Program-made: the position numbers and the translations under genes | In this document: positions 6,341 to 23,100 of the stretch, one piece after another | Position numbering within the stretch: the first letter of the stretch is position 1 | Layout of the letters: every line of letters starts with the position of its first letter | Notes under the pieces: model-generated | The model's database searches: none | Seen by the model: only the letters and a program-made list of their open reading frames with translations | Told to the model about the DNA's origin: nothing | Assembly: GCF_000003605.2 (NCBI RefSeq) | Contig: NW_003147777.1 | Span: 108,777 to 133,130 of the forward strand | DNA from: Saccoglossus kowalevskii | Lineage: Eukaryota > Hemichordata > Enteropneusta > Harrimaniidae | DNA: 24,354 nt | Direction of reading: 5' to 3'

Positions 6341-6555
6341 AAAAATGGATATTTCGTGCTATATTGCCCGCCAAGTGGATATTACATGGTATATCACATG
6401 AATATGGTGCCATTGTGGCACATGCGCTGTCTATTTCGAATGGCTAACATTTTTTCAAAACCTTGCGTTGCGCAGTAATTCCAGGGACACTATCTATGTG
6501 ATATACCATGTAATATCCTTTTGGCGGGCAATATACAAATGTAATATCCATTTTT
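6341..6555. repeat. Foldback inverted repeat with about 60-bp arms
   Basis: The arm at 6341-6399 and the reverse complement of 6496-6555 agree at nearly nine of ten positions. Both contain the shared block ATATTGCCCGCCAA and then GGATATTACATGGTATATCA. The loop of about 96 bp includes a small perfect hairpin (GTGCCA TTG TGGCAC, 6407-6421). The structure resembles a foldback or MITE-type element, and weaker similarity may extend outward to about 6310 and 6580. It lies 70 bp from the 6095-6270 element, and the two share an ATATTGCCC word, so they may be parts of one composite insertion. Confidence 0.7.
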
Positions 6556-9500: not shown

Positions 9501-11400
9501 TTTCGTGCATATTATTAGTAGTAGTGTTCCTCAGTTGTTGGAACATTTTCTTCCATTTTAGCGTTGGTTTTCAATCAAAGTATTTTCAATATTCAATGTT
9601 TGAAGCACTTCTTCATGTTTCCACCTCAAACATTATTGGCGTAGTCGAAATGAGATTTATTCAGCAATTTAAGACATAAAAGATCACTTTATATTCACTA
9701 ATATTGGTTGTGAAAAAATTACACCTGATCTGAAGCCCAGTTCTTCACCCGTCATTCAGAATACTTAGTTTGACATTGTTTTGATTCATGAAAAACTATT
9801 AGTAGCATTCACACTAAGGCCCTTAATCAGTCACATAGTCGAGGCAAACACCATGATCACGTGTAAAACGCAGTGTTATCAAAAAGTGTCGCGTTAACCC
9901 GTTTACTATACACAGATTCAATTAATGGACTGTTTTTTCAACCACAAACTGCCATAGATTCTTTCCCAAAGCCAGACAGACAATGTAACGCTGTCATTCA
10001 GTTGTCAAAATCAGTTGTAAGAACAACCTTGACATCTCACATTGTCATGTTTGTTAACGTAAGCAGTAATATTTAATCAATAGTTCTGGCCGCACAGTAA
10101 AACAATCGTATCTTACTGAAGACTCAGTATGACCTCAAATAAACGCATATTCACTAAATCCAAGTTTGGTAACAATATTTTTAACATCAATTCATTGTTG
10201 ATACAAGCCAGAAAATAAAACAAAAATGTCGATGCGAATTGGTCCCATGTCTGTGATATTTGAGCGTCTTTAACGTATCATCCTATATGAGGGCAAGTTA
10301 TTGTGATACCTGTAATGGATTTATTACGATCTGTGTTGTTTTCATCAGACAACTGTTGCCTTTTTAAACGATCGCATTTAAAATTGAAAGTACCACAAAC
10401 TAGAGTATAAAAGTGGATATGTATTTATAGCATGTGTTTTGCTGCAACATAATTATGTTTTCAATTATGTGTTTTATGTACAAATAACTACTTATCAACG
10501 CATATCTACTTATCTTTACGTAATACTTATGTGTGCCTGTGTCACTTCGAACATATATTTGTGAAATCCTTTAATTTCACATTCAGATACACTGTTGATG
10601 CATCTTTAATCTACAACCCTAAATACTACAATAATACTTCTTCTGTGTCACACCTAGATCTGTGCTTTGAATTTGACACTAGGGACCAGATTTTTACCTG
10701 GGTATACATTGAGTAATTCATTAATCGGGCATATAGTACTTTATTAAAAGACAGTATCTTCTTTCATTCAAACTACTAAACCAGGGACTTTCATGCAATC
10801 AGATTATGGTTAAATACAACAACACCGTTAATAAAGTGGTATCAATGTTATTTGTTTGATGTTGACTTCAATTTAATGTATACCTTAGAGAAATATAGTT
10901 TTCCTTTGTGTGTTTGTGTGTCACAAGCCGGAATGGGAACTTGCCTCATTAGAAACCACAATCACTCCCATGCTACATGTGTACATACTATTAGACCACA
11001 TGGCAATCTAGCGAGATCAAAGGTAGATATAACAATAATCTCGGTATGAAATTTGTTTTTCTCTTCTTTGTATTCTAGTCACAGTTGGCGTTTATTCACT
11101 CAGATAATGACAACACAATAGAAATATAGTATGACGTCATGCTTGTTGAACAAATATAGAATGACTATTTCTGAATTCATGATCACCTGCTTGGCCCGTT
11201 TTTCTGTTATATTCTCTTAGAATACCTCCAAAGTTTAAATGTCAACGACGAAAAACAAACAATACTTGTTCTATTGTTCAAACATCAATGATATATTATA
11301 GTTTTTATAAGAAACAGCGGGGTGGGTTTGATCTGCCCGCAATGATATATCATATTAACTCTCTCACCACTTTTGATTAAAACTGCCAGCTGTGAAACTG
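6586..11400. other. Long region without a recognised gene
   Basis: Nothing here is recognised as a gene. The open frames at 7398-7769 (minus, 123 codons), 8197-8565 (minus, 122 codons) and several plus-strand frames have no family motifs, no good exon boundaries and ordinary AT-driven composition. A hairpin with a perfect 10-bp stem lies at 8905-8940, a second consensus CRE at 11131-11140, and an ETS-type CCGGAAGC word near 9451-9460. A plus-strand ATG in a good context at 7440 opens only 18 codons. Confidence 0.5.
8905..8940. other. Perfect 10-bp stem hairpin
   Basis: AGGTTATCAG at 8905-8914 pairs exactly with CTGATAACCT at 8931-8940 across a 16-nt A-rich loop. The stem is too short for a microRNA precursor. 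It could be a small inverted repeat of a decayed element or chance. Confidence 0.4.
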
Positions 11401-11402
11401 TA

Positions 11403-11508
11403 ATGAAAGGTGGACGTAATGCATTGTGTCTCGCTTAATACTAATAGCATGATGTTAAGGTTATTATTAAAAAAACACTATTATCTTCACCATGTCATTA
11501 TTAGATGA
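11403..11508 (+). repeat. Left 106-bp terminal inverted repeat
   Basis: This is the left arm of the 11403-12825 element. It ends internally at TTATTAGATGA, where similarity to the opposite arm stops. An ATG in its last bases (11505) opens the 127-codon internal frame. Compared with the right arm it has A instead of C at one position in the GCTTAATACTAAT stretch. Confidence 0.9.
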
Positions 11509-11888
11509 ATACGTTGGGTGATTTATTGAAATATCAAAACTTGTCAATGTCAACACAGGTCAATCACACCTATGATCGCGCAATATATAACAGAAACGGC
11601 TACATGAACGTTTATATTATGAGAACTAAGCGATGTTATCCCATTGAGGAAGAAAGAATTAAAAATATGCGGTACCTTGAGGCCTCTTGTCACAGAAGTT
11701 ACAAATTGCAAAATACACTAGACAAAAAGGAAGTTTGTTTTGTTTACAAAACCGTGTTGCGATACACCAAAATGTACCAAAAATACATATTCATCATATC
11801 ATATATTGTGGGAAATAGTCACTGGTATGTTGGCTTAGAGGTCAATGAAAACAGCTTCAATACATGTCATCGTGTTACAATATTTTGA
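11505..11888 (+). CDS. Unrecognised 127-codon frame inside the TIR element
   Basis: The frame starts at an ATG in the inner edge of the left TIR and runs 127 codons. I do not recognise the product. The protein is rich in Lys, Arg, Tyr and Asn. It has no visible signal peptide, no helix-turn-helix or zinc-finger pattern, and no DDE/DDD acidic triad that would mark a Tc1/mariner transposase, which is normally about 340 residues. A hydrophobic stretch (YIFIISYIVG) occurs near residues 94-103. It could be a remnant of an element protein, a captured host fragment or a chance frame. A frame of this length is near the upper end of what this base composition gives by chance, so confidence is low. Confidence 0.15.
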   Translation: MNTLGDLLKYQNLSMSTQVNHTYDRAIYNRNGYMNVYIMRTKRCYPIEEERIKNMRYLEASCHRSYKLQNTLDKKEVCFVYKTVLRYTKMYQKYIFIISYIVGNSHWYVGLEVNENSFNTCHRVTIF

Positions 11889-12719: not shown

Positions 12720-12825
12720 TCATCTAATAATGACATGGTGAAGATAATAGTGTTTTTTTAATAATAACCTTAACATCATGCTATTAGTAGTAAGCGAGAC
12801 ACAATGCATTACGTCCACCTTTCAT
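12720..12825 (-). repeat. Right 106-bp terminal inverted repeat
   Basis: This is the right arm of the 11403-12825 element. It is the reverse complement of the left arm except for one base by my reading. It is followed directly by TA and then GAGGACC, which is unlike the sequence outside the left arm, so 12825 is the element boundary. Confidence 0.9.
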
Positions 12826-12827
12826 TA

Positions 12828-15800
12828 GAGGACCTGAATTGCGACTCTCAGCAGCGATATAATTCGAAAAACCATAAATCAATGCTCGTTGCAGTCAACA
12901 AGAGCAAACTAGCCAACAATTCTTTTTGTATATCGTTTTGTGTGTGCTTACATTGATATGAGGGTTGTCATTTTATTTGAATTCATCTTTTTATAATCTC
13001 AAGATTGGATTATTGAATTAGTCTGTAATCTTCCGGGCCGCATTCAAAATTCTGCTGTACGTCGATTAGATAAGCGTGAACACATTTCACCTGTTTTTTT
13101 AGATTAGGATTGGTTACCAATCTCTCAGCGTATTGTTTTCAAATTTTAATAACTTGCACGACAAAGCGCCAGATTCGCTGTCTTTTTTAATTAATATTCA
13201 TGTATCTGTTAGAGCAATTCTTTCCTTGTATACAATTGATTCAATGACCCCAGGTACACTATGGAAAGCGAGTTTTTACTGTAGTAGTTCAAGGCTATGA
13301 ACCACTACTAGGAACAATTTTCGTGACGAACGTGAAGCGTATTGCATCACAGAAGTTCCTTGTATCACTTTATACAATTTTGTTCCACCATTACTACTTC
13401 TAATTATATTTTTCTACTTTTTTACAATTAATTCACAATTAAAATTTTTAATTTACCTGCTGTAATTTTTGATCGTGACAAGCGTAATGGGATTATTTTT
13501 TAAGTAATATGCTATATAGTATGTATATGCTAAAAATGTCTTCTTATTAAAAAAATAAAAAAGCAGTAAACAAATAATAAAATAGTAATAATAAAAAAGA
13601 AAATAGAAATAAAAGAAAGAAAGAAATACACGCTGTGCGAGACATAAGATTTTCAGCGGATTGCGTTGTGCAACACCTGAGAAAAATACTCGGAAAATAT
13701 AATTTAGTTTAGTCTTTAACATTTTGTTTAACCTTACTGTTATTCACGATACATGCATGCTATTATCTTCATTTACCCCCAATACAGCAGCTCAATTGCT
13801 ACCCACTTGACATACAGGTGCCTTAAAGGTAGGCTGTTTGATAATATAAAATAACTTCTAACGACATCAATTACAGCTTGTCAAAATATCGATTTACTAG
13901 GTTTATTGGATAAAATTCCGCTGACTTTTCAAATGTCTTTGTTTTGTTGTTATGCTCCATCAAACAAACAGAGCTATTTCGATGAATGAGAAAACTGACC
14001 TATTCTATACGAATCCAGCCATTAGTTGACTTTGAAACTGTTTATGTTAATAGGAAAATATAGAACAGACCTTACCAGTGGTAGCTGGTGTTAGAAATGA
14101 TAGATCACCCATTCCACTAGTGATCCAAATACTGTTTAGTGTGCAAGCCAGAATCAGAACAGGAGATTGTTTATTGCCAGTTGAGAGCAATCAGCTATAA
14201 AGTCTTCATTGTCACCAGATTGTATGATTATGTCAAAATATATTAATGATATATGTGAAACTAGCAAACATGAAATAACTCGAAATATTTGACTTACATT
14301 TTCTAAGAAGATCTTAATTCGGAAAAAATGACAAAAAAAATAAATATTTCCTAAAATGAATTGTTGATATATCAATACCAATGAATATTCTGACAAATAT
14401 TAGTATCTGCCATAAATATTATCATATTATAATAAAGACCCATATGTGGAGGCTGGCGAATAAACTCAAATAAGGATAAATCTGTACACGAATCTCTCTT
14501 GCAGGTCTATTATGCAAATGCGAAAACTGATTATGCAATTTTGTCATATTTAGTTCGTCACATAAACAAGATGTAGTCATGGTTCCTTGTTGCTGCAGTT
14601 TCATCTGATATTTTCAATGCATTTGGTGCCAAGGTCTTGTAACCAATCTCCAACTCTGGGTATGTAGCTGCTGGTTTTACTTATAATTCCTTGCTAAAAT
14701 AAATAAACAGAAATCCAGACACAGCAACTGATATGATAGATAATTAGTAGTAAACGTATTGAACCGCGTCTTTTGTCTACTGAATTTTAGAATAAAATAT
14801 CTTGGACATATCGAAGAAAAAACAATATTATTAACAGCAAACATTATATGCCTGATTTGTGCTCCAGGCTATGCCATATTATAAAACTATTCTGTAAACC
14901 ATTTATTTTCAGAATAGAACTTAATGGGGATAATACGTACATTTATCAATGTACGATGTTGGTGTCATATTAATTTCTGAACAAACAATGGTTAAATGTA
15001 TAATTGCTGTTAGTAAACACGGTTTACTTTGTTCATTATTATGTTCTCATAATAATGCAGACCAATACATAAAGCTAGTACCTGCCTGGTGACATACCAT
15101 ATTTATTTCATGACATGTCGCATGCTTTAACAATGGGACATACAAATGAAAGTGTGATATCAACATGTACTTCGTTTAGACTTTTATTAACATATTATAA
15201 CAATTGGAAATAGTGTAACCTTTGATGGAGCAACATGTGGGTTATGCAGGGAAATACATTAGAGGCGATTGTTATACATACACATTACGGATATATATTA
15301 CATATAAATTGACAACATAATACCCAGTACATGTTCTTTTCTTTGCATTTGCATATACCCGGATACAAAGCACAGGCACATTGGAAACACATATAAATGA
15401 AACATGTATTGTATTACAGTTCTTCGAGAATAAAAAACGAATTAAAGATTGCTATTTTACAAGAAGAGTTTTCCACTTTTATCTCTTCATGCAATTTACA
15501 GATGTCAGGTCAACTGATAATTAAAATATGCAACTAGCAATACAGCGTGGGTCTGCATGTAGTAGATGTTACGAATACCTGGCCTTGTTTTTAATTGCTG
15601 TAACAATATTCAGTTCCTTATCCACATAAAGTAAACTCAGTACAATTGCTATAAGAATACAAAAATTAAATTTATTATCATATTAATATTCTCGTGGGTA
15701 TAATTTCAGCTGCTTCACCTTGGACTATTTATAACAAACAGACTTGACACCACCCCGTGAGCTTCGTCGGGACGCAGCAATAAGCCACAACATCCCAATT

Positions 15801-18026: not shown

Positions 18027-18078
18027 TTAAACACTGAATGCGAGTTTCGTAGTGCGGATATCCAGATCTTCAGGACGC
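18027..18078 (-). CDS. Peptide hormone precursor gene, exon 3 (C-terminal)
   Basis: This is the last coding exon of the minus-strand peptide gene. The acceptor is a T-run ending CATGTTTTTTTAG, with the exon starting at 18078. Exon 2 leaves two bases (AG), and joining them to the first G here gives Arg. The frame then reads RPEDLDIRTTKLAFSV and stops at TAA (18029-18027). The junction therefore creates an Arg-Arg pair, a potential convertase site, which separates a 15-residue acidic-then-hydrophobic tail from the preceding spacer. The other two phases were not used because only this one matches exon 2. The intron before it is 226 bp. The call depends on the acceptor being used; a different terminal exon is possible, so confidence is lower than for exons 1 and 2. 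Confidence 0.5.
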
Positions 18079-18304
18079 CTAAAAAAACATGCTGGCCGAC
18101 AGACCAACGAACGTGTGCGGTGCATCAAGGTTACCAAAAATGATTGTCAGCATAAACAAATAAGGCGGGGGTGATGGGTCACATACATTATAAATCCCAA
18201 AATACTCTTCTGGTTTCACAATAATTTACCACGCAATACTATTAGAAGCGTCCGATTTTGATGCAAACTTTTTTGAAATGTTCGTGAACACGTAGGTGGA
18301 GTAC

Positions 18305-18461
18305 CTGGGTCCCTGGTGAACATTTGCTCTTTTCCCCGACCGGGTCCTGTCATGAAACCTTCTTATGTCACCAGTGTTAAGTGCTTGTATAATTGCAACG
18401 TCTTCCCTGGTGCAGAACAATCCAATCCTGCAAAATGCACTCAGTAATTTTGCTTTCCAGT
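18305..18461 (-). CDS. Peptide hormone precursor gene, exon 2 (Cys ring and amidation site)
   Basis: This exon is 157 bp, bounded by a long T-rich tract ending CTCGATAG (acceptor) and by CCCAG/GTACTC (donor at 18304-18303). Joined to the single base left by exon 1, it opens with Asp-Trp and encodes 52 residues. Key features in order are a basic/hydrophobic lead-in (DWKAKLLSAF), a Cys ring CRIGLFC followed by Thr, a stretch of possible amphipathic helix (REDVAIIQAL), an Arg-Arg pair, and FHDRTRSGKR. GKR is the classic signal for dibasic cleavage and C-terminal amidation. A C-x5-C ring followed by T/V, a helix and an amidated end is the layout of calcitonin-type peptides, and CR-x-G resembles the adrenomedullin ring. 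The ring spacing is that of calcitonin, not adrenomedullin. Family assignment is tentative; secreted-peptide character is better supported. Confidence 0.65.
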
Positions 18462-19922
18462 CTATCGAGAAAACATAAAAAAAACAAAAAAAACATTTCA
18501 ACTGTATTTCCCAATGACGATAATATACGCAAATGTATATATATTTTTTTTCTTTTTCTTTCTTTAGTGTAATCAACAGTTTATACATTGTTCTATGAAA
18601 ATGTGTATGCTTCCAATAAGAGAAGAGCCAAGTAACCTCTAACATAACAGTACCTCATGTTCTTATTCACGTTACGATTTGATAGCATCTGAAAGAATAT
18701 CACGAAAAAATATCAAGAATAAAAAAAAGCTCAAAATGACTAACGAAACTGGGCCCTATGGCTCTAAATTATCCATTCATTACATGTTATTTTCATTGCC
18801 GAGTTGTTGTGTGTGGAATTTGCCTGTTGTCCAGTTAGGTGTATGAACTAATGTAACTGTTCAATGGATGACGTATCGCGTGCGTCATCCGGATGGGTCA
18901 ACGAGGGTGAGAGAGTTAATCGAATTCCCTTAAAAATATAGGACAAACTTGTTCTATATTTACAGGTCCGTCTTGGCGTCATGGAGCATTAAATATACAA
19001 TCCCTTCAATCTTGTGTCTTTGAGTGCATATACTAGTAGTGGGCCTGCGACTTACACGTTAATGAGTTATACAGAGCGTTGTTGCGTAAATACGAACACA
19101 ACACAGTAATAGACTAACATCCCTTAGCAGTAACCGCGGCAGGGGCTCACTTAAGAGTTATATCGATATCCAAGTGTGCGTAACGAGCTTGTTGAGCAGT
19201 TTATCTTCAATCTGCGTCACGGCACCAGCAACGGCGTCAATCTTAGTAGATAAAACCGCCCACGACGGTATCCGTAATGGTATATAACATATTTAATTGC
19301 GGCAACTAATTCACTTTGATTTACATTTAGGCTCAGATATAAGCGCAATTGTACGGTATGATGTTTCAATTAGAAAAGAGAAGTTTAAATTGTATTTGCG
19401 TGTTTGTTTGTTAGTCATGAAACTACGAAATATCCGGCGACACTATTTTCGCGCAAGAAAATAAAAGAACGTATTTTATGGTAGGTCCCAAATATTTGGA
19501 ATTCGTGGTAAGATTTACCTCTGGAGAGTTCTTCGACTTATTTTGTTTTGAAAAATAATTGCGTGTATTCCTTGTAAATATTTAACTATTATTTGTTTTG
19601 TGATAAAAGCCAAGATTTAAATTCGCACAGCAGTTGTGAAATTTCTATATCTATCCGGGAGTCATTTTAAAATTAATAAGGCTGTGGTTTGAGTAGAATA
19701 ACACATGAACAAAGACGAAATATTGTTAACTGGTAATTTATTTAGCTAGATGCATTCAAAAAACAAAGATAACGTCAAATATGTTCCCCACCTTGAATAG
19801 ATCATCTAATATGTTAAATTAATTAAATTGAAACAATTACTGAAGTAATGATGCTATATAATCTAAATCTAGTTGTGTCCTATTAGACTCGGAGGAAATA
19901 TTGAAAAAAACAAGGAAAATAC
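18462..19922 (-). other. Intron 1 of the peptide gene (1461 bp), phase 1
   Basis: The intron runs from donor GAAG/GTATTT (GT at 19922-19921) to the T-tract acceptor at 18463-18462. It holds two hairpins (8-bp stem GGATGACG/CGTCATCC at 18866-18890, and an ATATAG-type imperfect one near 18939-18962). It also holds a GC-richer coding-like segment at 19158-19292 on the minus strand that cannot be spliced into the frame in phase. No mobile element is recognised in it. Confidence 0.5.
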
Positions 19923-20064
19923 CTTCCCCCTGTGGGTTTTCGTTTCTTCGGTCTAGTTGCACACTGTTTGTGTGTATGTTGCCAGGCATAATTGGTGATG
20001 AATACACTGCGGCGATTAGAAATACTAATATCAGGAATATACTGCAGCACTGCTGAGACGACAT
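19923..20064 (-). CDS. Peptide hormone precursor gene, exon 1 (signal peptide)
   Basis: The start is taken at the ATG at 20064-20062, which has A at -3. An in-frame ATG at 20127 has a poorer context and would place 21 polar residues before the hydrophobic core. The exon encodes 47 residues plus one base. A Ser/Gln/Cys head is followed by a hydrophobic core (SIFLILVFLIAAV) and a cleavage region YSSPIMP that satisfies small-residue rules at -3 and -1, so a signal peptide is clear. The propeptide continues with HTNSVQLDRRNENPQGE; the Arg-Arg is a convertase site that would free the N-terminus of the Cys-ring peptide. The donor is GAAG/GTATTT. Reading through the donor gives a frame that stops after about 26 more codons, so an unspliced 68-residue product is the alternative. 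An acceptor-like CTTAG at 20136-20132 suggests an upstream untranslated exon. Confidence 0.65.
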
Positions 20065-20127: not shown

Positions 20128-23100
20128 TCACCTAAGTCATACAAAACAAAAATTCTGTTTCACGGGCTTGCAACACACAACAATTTCTCCGGATGACTAT
20201 GTCATTTGAGCGATATTGCTCATACATTATAACAGTAGCGTCATTCATAAAATAACCGCAGTTTTTATTTAGGCATTATAATTTTTCATTTTTTAATACT
20301 ATGCGCTGAATGTGTACCTGAATGTTGGTGCAGTGAGTGTAAATCTAAACAGTTATAGCTAATCATAAGTACGGTATACGATGCACAGCGCTCATATTTA
20401 CCCTTCATAATCTTACTCTAACTGGGATTATTTAAATATTAAACTACTTTTGTTGCTTGAGATTACTTTGCGAAATCGTATACGATTGGGCATATGACGT
20501 GACCGAATTCATATCATTTTTAGCAATATCGTGACGACAAGGCAAGATTTGCACTATTAAAGTACCACGGATGTGATAACTGTGGTAATAATTTGTATCA
20601 TACAGTGTGCTTCACGTTCAATACACATGTTTGATCTTGTAAGTTAGAGACATGATGTGCGAGTATTAACAATAAACGACATTCAAAACGAAACTAACGT
20701 TGTTGTCGTCACAAAATTAAAACATTCATTATAAGTTAATATGTGATGCGTTGGATAACTAATGTAGATACATGTCAATCATTCATTCCACAATTCAGAA
20801 TGTTGTGTCGTTGTGGTAACGAGTTATATAGGATTAGATACAAATGTATTAGCTTATTAGTTACTTTCTAAACGATTGTTGAACACACATTCGCTTCATA
20901 AAATTAATTAATGGAGTATATTCTTCTTTATTAACTGAAATGTCAAAATATATCGAACCCTTATCTGGTTGTATATATGAACTATCGATGAACTTTACGC
21001 AGAGAAAAACAAAGGGTATGTTGAGTAGGCTGAACCGATTAAAGTCGTGTTGTCAGAGCTTAATTCAATGTTTATGACTTTCAGTTATATTCATATGCAT
21101 AAAATATGCCTCGGGGGACTGTATCAAATTAGATACAACATGAAAGACTAATGTCTTATTTATAAATGCATAACAGCGTGTTTCCGGAAAACGTTAAATT
21201 TCAGGTGTCTGCTGTGCTTTTGAAGGTATAAGCTAACAATGCGGCTTGTTAAAGAATGACGTTTACTTAAATACCCCGCGGAATGAAAGGGAACACCATC
21301 AAAACCTAGAATAAGTTCAAAGTTAAAATACAAACAACAGTATGATAGCTACGCTGAGGATTACGGATTGGTCGAAACCTCGTAAAATGCGATGTTTGGA
21401 ACAGATTATGTGTCGATTGTACATGTTCCCGCATAAACTATTTACCAAGTTGTGTATGTAATACGGCATGAATAAGTGATAATGATATTTTATTTTCTGA
21501 TGGAAGTTGAAATGCACACTAGAGTAAAAGGTCAAATAAAAATGGTGTGTTTGCAGTACACAAAAACATATTCTTGCAACGAAAGTCTATATAAATATGC
21601 TTGCGCACTTTGCAATAATAATATATACCGGTATTTGGGAAAGCACGTGCTATAAATGAAACAAAGAAAATTCTCTCTGAAAATATTACAAACACAAATT
21701 GAAATATATACATTTATCCACACTATTTATTTAGGTAAATACTAAAAAAATAGATATAAGTTAAAATTCATCAAAACATTAATCCCAAACCCCTATTTGT
21801 GGCCACTTATATATACCTCCCGATCATATTTTAGACAATTCTAATGTCTACACGTCGAGTGTACAACATGTTGCCCTTGTTTACACCAGTCTTTTGACGG
21901 ACATGTTTAATTGCCTTTAAAAAAGACAACAAGCATATTACCCCCGATCTCAACATATCGGTTGAAAACTCACCACGTAAATATTTATTTGGAAGTGAAT
22001 TAATGAACTACCTGTTTGTAAATAACAATTTCTAACTCAGAAATTAAGCAACGTTGTATAACTGTATTTGCAGTGGTACAAAAAGATCATTTGATTATAC
22101 GCGACGATCCACTCACTTCTTTCGCATGTGGGTCACCTGCCTGTTGACAAGCGTGACGAATAAAAGTTCCTTCTGATATGCATGTATCTCATAAAAACTA
22201 TGAATTCTAACACTTTCATAGCCGGAGGATCCATCGCATATCATCGGAGCTCTATGTAATTTACGTACACTCATCACCAAGAACGTCAATTGCTCCCAGA
22301 GAAGAATGTTCTTATTGGTTCGCTGACGCTGATTGCTTCCTACATAGCTGGCGGGGTATCCAATCAAGAAATCCAACAAAAGAACTGAAGTGTCTATATG
22401 GTAATACGGCGAAGTAATTAAAGTGCGTGTGATCATATTGCATTGAGTTATCTGGTGGGCGACAGTCAGTACAAACAGATACCTAAAAATTGTAGCTCTC
22501 TATTTATGATGCTTTTTTTTTCAACAAATATTGATAAAGTATGTTGTTTCAAAATGCAATGTCTATGGTGGCATTTTGGAATATAAACAAGGTGAATAGT
22601 GAATCGCAGTACTATTATGAATTAACTTTAGCCGTGAGTGTTTTATAAGTTTAACATATGTGACACTTTGTGTATATAGAGCCGAAATTGATGAAAAAAA
22701 AAACATGATAATTTATATTATAAATAATATCCACATATCAACACTTGATGAATAATGTACGAGAGTTAATTACAATTTGTGGAATGATTCTTAACACAAA
22801 AAGGTCTAATAACACTGATAAATGAATTAATTAAATGCACAGCTACTACTGCCTACCGCGCGTAACCGCACAGTGTGAGGTGGCACAGGGCAGGTCAAAA
22901 AAGTGAAATGCGAATGCAGCGTAATGTCACATATTATTGAACTATTTGCATTCAATCAGGCCCTTTGCTTCCGGGTTTCAATAACACTGTATAACACGTT
23001 TATTAATATATGGCAGCAAACGTCACGATGGAACAAATCGCGTGAAAACAATCTGACGTTGAATAGCCAAAAGTAATACTCTGCTTTTGGTATTATTTCA

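Follow-up and report, generated by a model that had tools for sequence, protein, structure and literature searches.

Three stretches on the minus strand of a Saccoglossus kowalevskii contig can be joined into one open frame that looks like the precursor of a secreted, amidated peptide with a single Cys ring. The locus raises two questions: whether this frame is a gene at all and, if so, whether its product belongs to the calcitonin/CGRP/adrenomedullin family. We favour, with a probability of about 0.6, a single-copy, intron-bearing Saccoglossus gene for an orphan secreted-peptide precursor of 116 residues (125 if it ends in exon 2); summed over all the readings in which the gene is real, its existence is probable, at about three in four. 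The first-pass annotation had proposed a secreted amidated Cys-ring gene, possibly calcitonin-like; the anatomy of the precursor and the rarity of such exon pairs support the gene, and the family label is not supported. Hemichordates are a bilateral outgroup for inferring the ancestral deuterostome set of peptide signals, and a single-copy ring peptide that belongs to none of the known families would, if true, provide a concrete orphan ligand for the orphan receptors of Saccoglossus. Should the peptide be instead a diverged calcitonin relative with the adrenomedullin layout, it would bear on the origin of the N-terminally extended members of that family.

Exon structure and the predicted precursor

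The window, that is, the whole stretch of 24,354 nt that was analysed, contains the three exons on its minus strand. Coding exon 1 (19923..20064) carries the initial Met, the signal peptide, a short propeptide, Arg-Arg 39-40 and the start of the predicted mature peptide, and ends at a phase 1 donor with its GT at 19922 (percentile 90.3). Coding exon 2 (18305..18461) follows an acceptor preceded by a long T-rich tract (percentile 98.7), encodes the bulk of the predicted peptide, with the ring C58-RIGLF-C64 and then GKR at 90-92, and is closed by a phase 2 donor at 18304 (percentile 94.1). A possible coding exon 3 (18027..18078), with an acceptor at percentile 94.9, would add the end of the C-terminal tail and the stop TAA. 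The percentiles come from a generic matrix and rank each site among every scorable GT or AG in the contig stretch. Translation of the 142 + 157 + 52 nt gives 351 nt without internal stops and a joined frame of 116 codons with intron phases 1 and 2 and GT/AG at all borders, so that the exon coordinates, borders and phases originally proposed are exact and the frame of about 116 codons is confirmed. The product of this CDS (351 nt, with stop) reads MSSQQCCSIFLILVFLIAAVYSSPIMPGNIHTNSVQLDRRNENPQGEDWKAKLLSAFCRIGLFCTREDVAIIQALNTGDIRRFHDRTRSGKRANVHQGPRRPEDLDIRTTKLAFSV. Exon 3 is the least secure of the three because the frame of exon 2 is alternatively open to a stop at 18226; with read-through, the gene would have two exons and its precursor 125 residues, the peptide being unchanged.

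The translated frame combines a signal peptide, dibasic sites and a Gly-Lys-Arg amidation signal, which are the general criteria of secreted amidated peptide-hormone precursors, and the signal peptide, the Arg-Arg, the ring CRIGLFC-T and the GKR that had been pointed out before are all in it. The h-region of the signal peptide, SIFLILVFLIAAV, lies in exon 1 and reaches a hydrophobicity of 3.54 on a simple score, used here in place of a trained predictor. Dibasic sites occur at 39-40, 81-82, 91-92 (after Gly90) and 100-101, the last of them being created by the exon 2/exon 3 junction, and cysteines at 6, 7, 58 and 64. In our reading Cys 6 and Cys 7 fall inside the predicted signal peptide; therefore, the secreted product would keep C58-C64 as its only pair. 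Between Arg-Arg 39-40 and GKR there are 49 residues, 17 of them ahead of the first Cys, the length and lead previously counted for cuts at Arg-Arg 40 and GKR. Arg81-Arg82, within this predicted 49-residue peptide, had been passed over. Helical moments just past the ring range from 0.16 to 0.38 in 11-residue windows, and a single-sequence AlphaFold model restricted to exon 2 (its 51 whole codons) placed one helix after the ring, at 18-28, and another ahead of it, at a mean pLDDT of 56.5 that is too low for reliance.

Known peptide precursors lose their signal peptide, close their ring in the ER, are cut at Arg-Arg or Lys-Arg, are amidated by PAM and are released from neuroendocrine cells. By analogy, the signal peptide of the candidate would be removed in the ER, where Cys58 and Cys64 would close a seven-membered ring, cleavage by a prohormone convertase would occur at GKR and behind Arg-Arg 40, and the Gly would be converted by PAM into a C-terminal amide to yield NENPQGEDWKAKLLSAFCRIGLFCTREDVAIIQALNTGDIRRFHDRTRS-NH2, which neuroendocrine cells may release to act on a receptor of the GPCR class. 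Expression of PC2 and PAM in S. kowalevskii is reported in PMC10508912. A ring that precedes a putative helix suggests a ligand of a G-protein-coupled receptor, possibly of class B.

Gene or chance assembly

The main rival explanation is a chance assembly in non-coding DNA, in which middling splice sites allow an ORF resembling a signal peptide to be joined to an unrelated open C...C/GKR stretch; we consider this unlikely, if by no means negligible. The candidate is the only stop-free C-x(3,8)-C...G[KR][KR] stretch in the six frames of the window, even with no splice sites required. We scanned the 154,798 known contig bases on both strands for a first exon resembling a signal peptide, with a compatible ring/amidation exon within 3 kb of it. 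The candidate was the only in-phase pair of this kind, and these 155 kb of real DNA without a second pair argue against chance, as does the good, T-rich acceptor of exon 2. In order-1 Markov windows such a pair arose in 1/300 at a hydrophobicity of at least 2.3 and in 0/300 at 3.5 or more; in order-3 simulated windows the corresponding figures were 15/4000 at 2.3, 1/4000 at 3.0 and 0/4000 at 3.5, the candidate scoring 3.54. The splice thresholds of these scans equalled the candidate's own values, and the pattern was picked after the candidate had been seen; therefore, the rarity figures favour the gene. Agreement of the frame across two introns had been called hard to explain by chance; none of the 4000 order-3 windows held a pair with an equally strong signal peptide, and 15 held a looser pair.

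If the loose criterion were applied to the whole genome (572 Mb in 4830 contigs, some 23,500 windows), roughly 90 chance pairs would be expected, and dozens of such hits in a genome-wide scan are what the chance explanation anticipates. For the strict criterion, 0/4000 by itself bounds the chance pairs only loosely, at under about 18, and the multiplied order-1 Markov rates suggest well under one in the whole genome. A search of the species' own genome with the 100 residues that exons 1 and 2 encode gave the locus itself as the one match at E<=10, with no second copy.

Other features of the locus are compatible with non-coding DNA. G at +5 is missing from both donors, and codon usage does not help the gene. 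The synonymous codon score of exon 2 is -0.069, as compared with a coding mean of 0.078, measured on the training stretches themselves, and a non-coding mean of -0.050, and 438 of the 724 non-coding segments score as high; when amino-acid content is included, 100/724 match it. Exon 1, at 0.039, and the complete CDS, at -0.005, fall between the two means. The model behind these scores was built from 20 GPCR stretches of the same genome (out of 149 matches) and three contig ORFs, a fourth, read out of frame with 18 stops, being left out; it is weak for 50 codons.

The lack of a homologue in Pfam, the PDB or the species' own genome also fits chance. In Pfam the precursor obtained no match over the cut-off, its signal-peptide region approaching Bee_toxin below threshold (13.4 bits, cut-off 25). 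In the PDB the precursor gave two chance-level matches to salicylic acid-binding protein (E 0.4) and the mature peptide gave none; an additional profile search of the PDB included the candidate in the profile and is no evidence for it. Sixteen of the 20 window ORFs of at least 80 aa were scanned against Pfam, the exon 2 ORF among them and the exon 1 ORF among the four left out as such, and none reached the cut-off, three matches with E 0.06-0.09 staying below threshold. Together with searches for tandem repeats and tRNAs (0 tRNAs in the window), these ORF scans revealed nothing that explains the locus. The strings CRIGLFC, FCRIGLF, AIIQALNTG, DWKAKLL, RRFHDRTR, TREDVAII and MSSQQCC were found in no paper among those searched; an existing gene model or listing, for instance in a supplement or a hemichordate neuropeptide survey, is possible.

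Relation to calcitonin, adrenomedullin and other peptide families

In its layout the candidate resembles an adrenomedullin/calcitonin peptide, but it is not placed in that family. With adrenomedullin it shares CR-G---CT at the ring and, as predicted for the candidate, an N-terminal lead before the ring, an amidated C-terminus and a possible helix after the ring. Human adrenomedullin has a lead of 15 residues before its ring, against 17 in the candidate on the assumption of an N-terminal cut at Arg-Arg 40. It differs in having four residues between the Cys rather than five and in ending in QGY-NH2 rather than RTRS-NH2. A broader likeness to the calcitonin family lies in the five residues between the Cys, the Thr that follows the ring, the low-confidence helix and the exon layout. 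This apparent resemblance to adrenomedullin remains a description of layout only. The echinoderm ArCT ring also spans five residues (PMC6002491), and a disulfide and amidation are common to ArCT, AjCT1, AjCT2 and, as predicted, the candidate; the ring lies near the N-terminus in those three peptides and, by the predicted cut, in mid-peptide in the candidate.

According to PMC6002491, deuterostome calcitonin-type peptides are characterized by two Cys with 4-5 residues between them, a C-terminal Pro-NH2 (CGRPs excepted) and an amphipathic helix, many of them also having Gly as the fifth residue from the C-terminus. PMC6283891 attributes two CT/CGRP peptides to S. kowalevskii and a Pro-NH2 terminus to every ambulacrarian member. 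AjCT1 may be an exception, PMC12638048 giving Pro-NH2 in the text and listing the synthesised peptide with Ala-NH2. The five residues between C58 and C64 are inside the 4-5 range, and to this extent the earlier remark that the ring has the spacing of calcitonin is correct. The C-terminus HDRTRS-GKR would yield Ser-NH2, with neither Pro-NH2 nor Gly at -5. Among these published traits, the spacing is the only one that the candidate clearly has.

We compared the candidate with a profile of nine family peptides, three of whose sequences were taken from papers. It scored -0.6 bits, and 57/200 shuffles scored at least as high; the nine known members, each left out in turn, scored 7.5-43.9 bits, with shuffles as good in 4/200 for AjCT1 and 0/200 for the other eight. 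Pairwise z values were 1.46 with adrenomedullin, 1.44 with adrenomedullin 2, 1.55 with human calcitonin, 0.95 with amylin, -0.22 with salmon calcitonin, -0.55 with CGRP, -1.36 with ArCT, -0.52 with AjCT1 and -1.23 with AjCT2, and 648/2000 shuffles equalled or bettered the summed pairwise score. The adrenomedullin alignment (LLSAFCRIGLFCT / LRSFGCRFGTCT), behind the z of 1.46, was attained by 178/2000 shuffles. All four control peptides had some relative with which z rose above 7, a level that the candidate reached with none of the family peptides; the pairwise test is weak alone, as some true family pairs also score near or below zero (ArCT-CGRP -0.82, AjCT2-AM2 -1.14), and the left-out profile test is the stronger of the two. 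In the Pfam search the precursor had no match to PF00214. Searches of the species' own genome for PF00214 and RAMP (PF04901) were blank, which shows little since 14 control genomes were likewise blank, and AjCT2 and ArCT as queries found no match in it either, so that the published S. kowalevskii calcitonins were not located.

Membership of the calcitonin/adrenomedullin family is therefore not supported by the profile, shuffle and pairwise tests. Against the label "possibly calcitonin-like" stand the same profile and shuffle results, the missing PF00214 match and the lack of Pro-NH2 and of Gly at -5; the profile search against calcitonin, CGRP and adrenomedullin that the first-pass annotation had recommended for the precursor has been run and yielded no family match. 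A strongly diverged, N-terminally extended member that has lost Pro-NH2 would account for the ring spacing within the deuterostome range of 4-5 (PMC6002491), the Thr after the ring, the pattern L-S---CR-G--CT common to adrenomedullin and the candidate, the mature-peptide exon following a signal-peptide exon and some amphipathic character past the ring. It is nevertheless improbable in view of the gap between -0.6 bits and the range of the nine left-out members, of z values that do not exceed 1.55 and are negative with the three echinoderm calcitonins, and of Ser-NH2 instead of Pro-NH2 with no Gly at -5. Just as improbable, in our estimation, is a real secreted-peptide gene with another product, either FHDRTRS-NH2 and a non-amidated ring peptide cut apart at Arg81-Arg82, a site whose position inside the predicted peptide speaks for this reading, or an antimicrobial or other secreted protein.

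Returning to the orphan precursor as the preferred reading, we would tentatively extend it, at somewhat less than an even chance, to an undescribed hemichordate peptide-hormone family marked by a seven-membered Cys ring in mid-peptide, a 17-residue lead and a Ser-amide, the layout being convergent with adrenomedullin and the receptor an orphan or a class B one.

Two other groups of peptides were considered. The ambulacrarian MCH-type and kisspeptin-type precursors share with the candidate a single disulfide pair and a small peptide (PMC4772807, PMC5627052); in a sequence comparison made by Pfam alone, the candidate matched neither type. In the NPY/NPF type, the C-terminal RF/RY has its Arg codon split by an intron (PMC7314547); this type is ruled out, since the candidate lacks RF/RY and its RTRS-GKR is not interrupted by an intron.

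Surroundings of the locus and other observations

Upstream of the ATG there are two possible promoter elements, TATTTAA (20432-20438) and, at about 430 bp, the CRE-like octamer TGACGTGA (20495..20502, unstranded), which is weak evidence because the window holds 4 such octamers. Elsewhere in the window, a 111-nt inverted repeat with 98% complementarity (11398-11508 and 12720-12830) encloses about 1.2 kb and was found in at least two places in the genome search, both of them these arms, such repeat counts being lower bounds; this suggests either a single-copy element or an inverted duplication of local origin. At the inner edge of its first arm starts a 127-aa ORF (11505-11888) with no Pfam match. 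An imperfect inverted repeat (52 nt, 87%, 72-nt spacer) lies at 6360-6535, a TGAG array at 1774-1863 and a CCACA pentamer array at 1-91, at the window edge adjoining a contig N run; N runs of the contig flank the window on both sides.

On the plus strand of the same contig, EGF-repeat ORFs of a multi-EGF gene extend over about 56.9-73.7 kb and end some 35 kb from the window, one of them having 693 codons with 17 PF00008 stretches. The minus strand encodes an NXPE-like C-terminal domain (PF24536) at 173870-174736 of the contig, and an ORF at 175776-176483 may be part of the same NXPE-like gene.

The mitochondrial contig of the assembly (C4830, 17,037 bp) has COX1 inverted, ND2 before ND1 and nad5 adjoining cob. 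It uses AAA at Lys sites, AGA 8 times and AGG once, and ATA at positions of COX1, cob, COX2 and COX3 that are usually Ile. PMC2697986 and PMC3121625 describe ATA as Ile in ambulacrarian mitochondria, AAA as Lys with no AGG in Saccoglossus kowalevskii, nd5-cob adjacency in the hemichordates Saccoglossus and Balanoglossus, and an inverted COX1 with a moved ND1 or ND2 in the S. kowalevskii mitochondrion. A cephalochordate host, which the scarcity of AGR codons in the mitochondrial genes had brought to mind, was discarded in view of ATA at Ile sites and of the gene order published for Saccoglossus. Code and gene order point to an acorn worm of the genus Saccoglossus, most likely S. kowalevskii, with whose published order that of the contig agrees.
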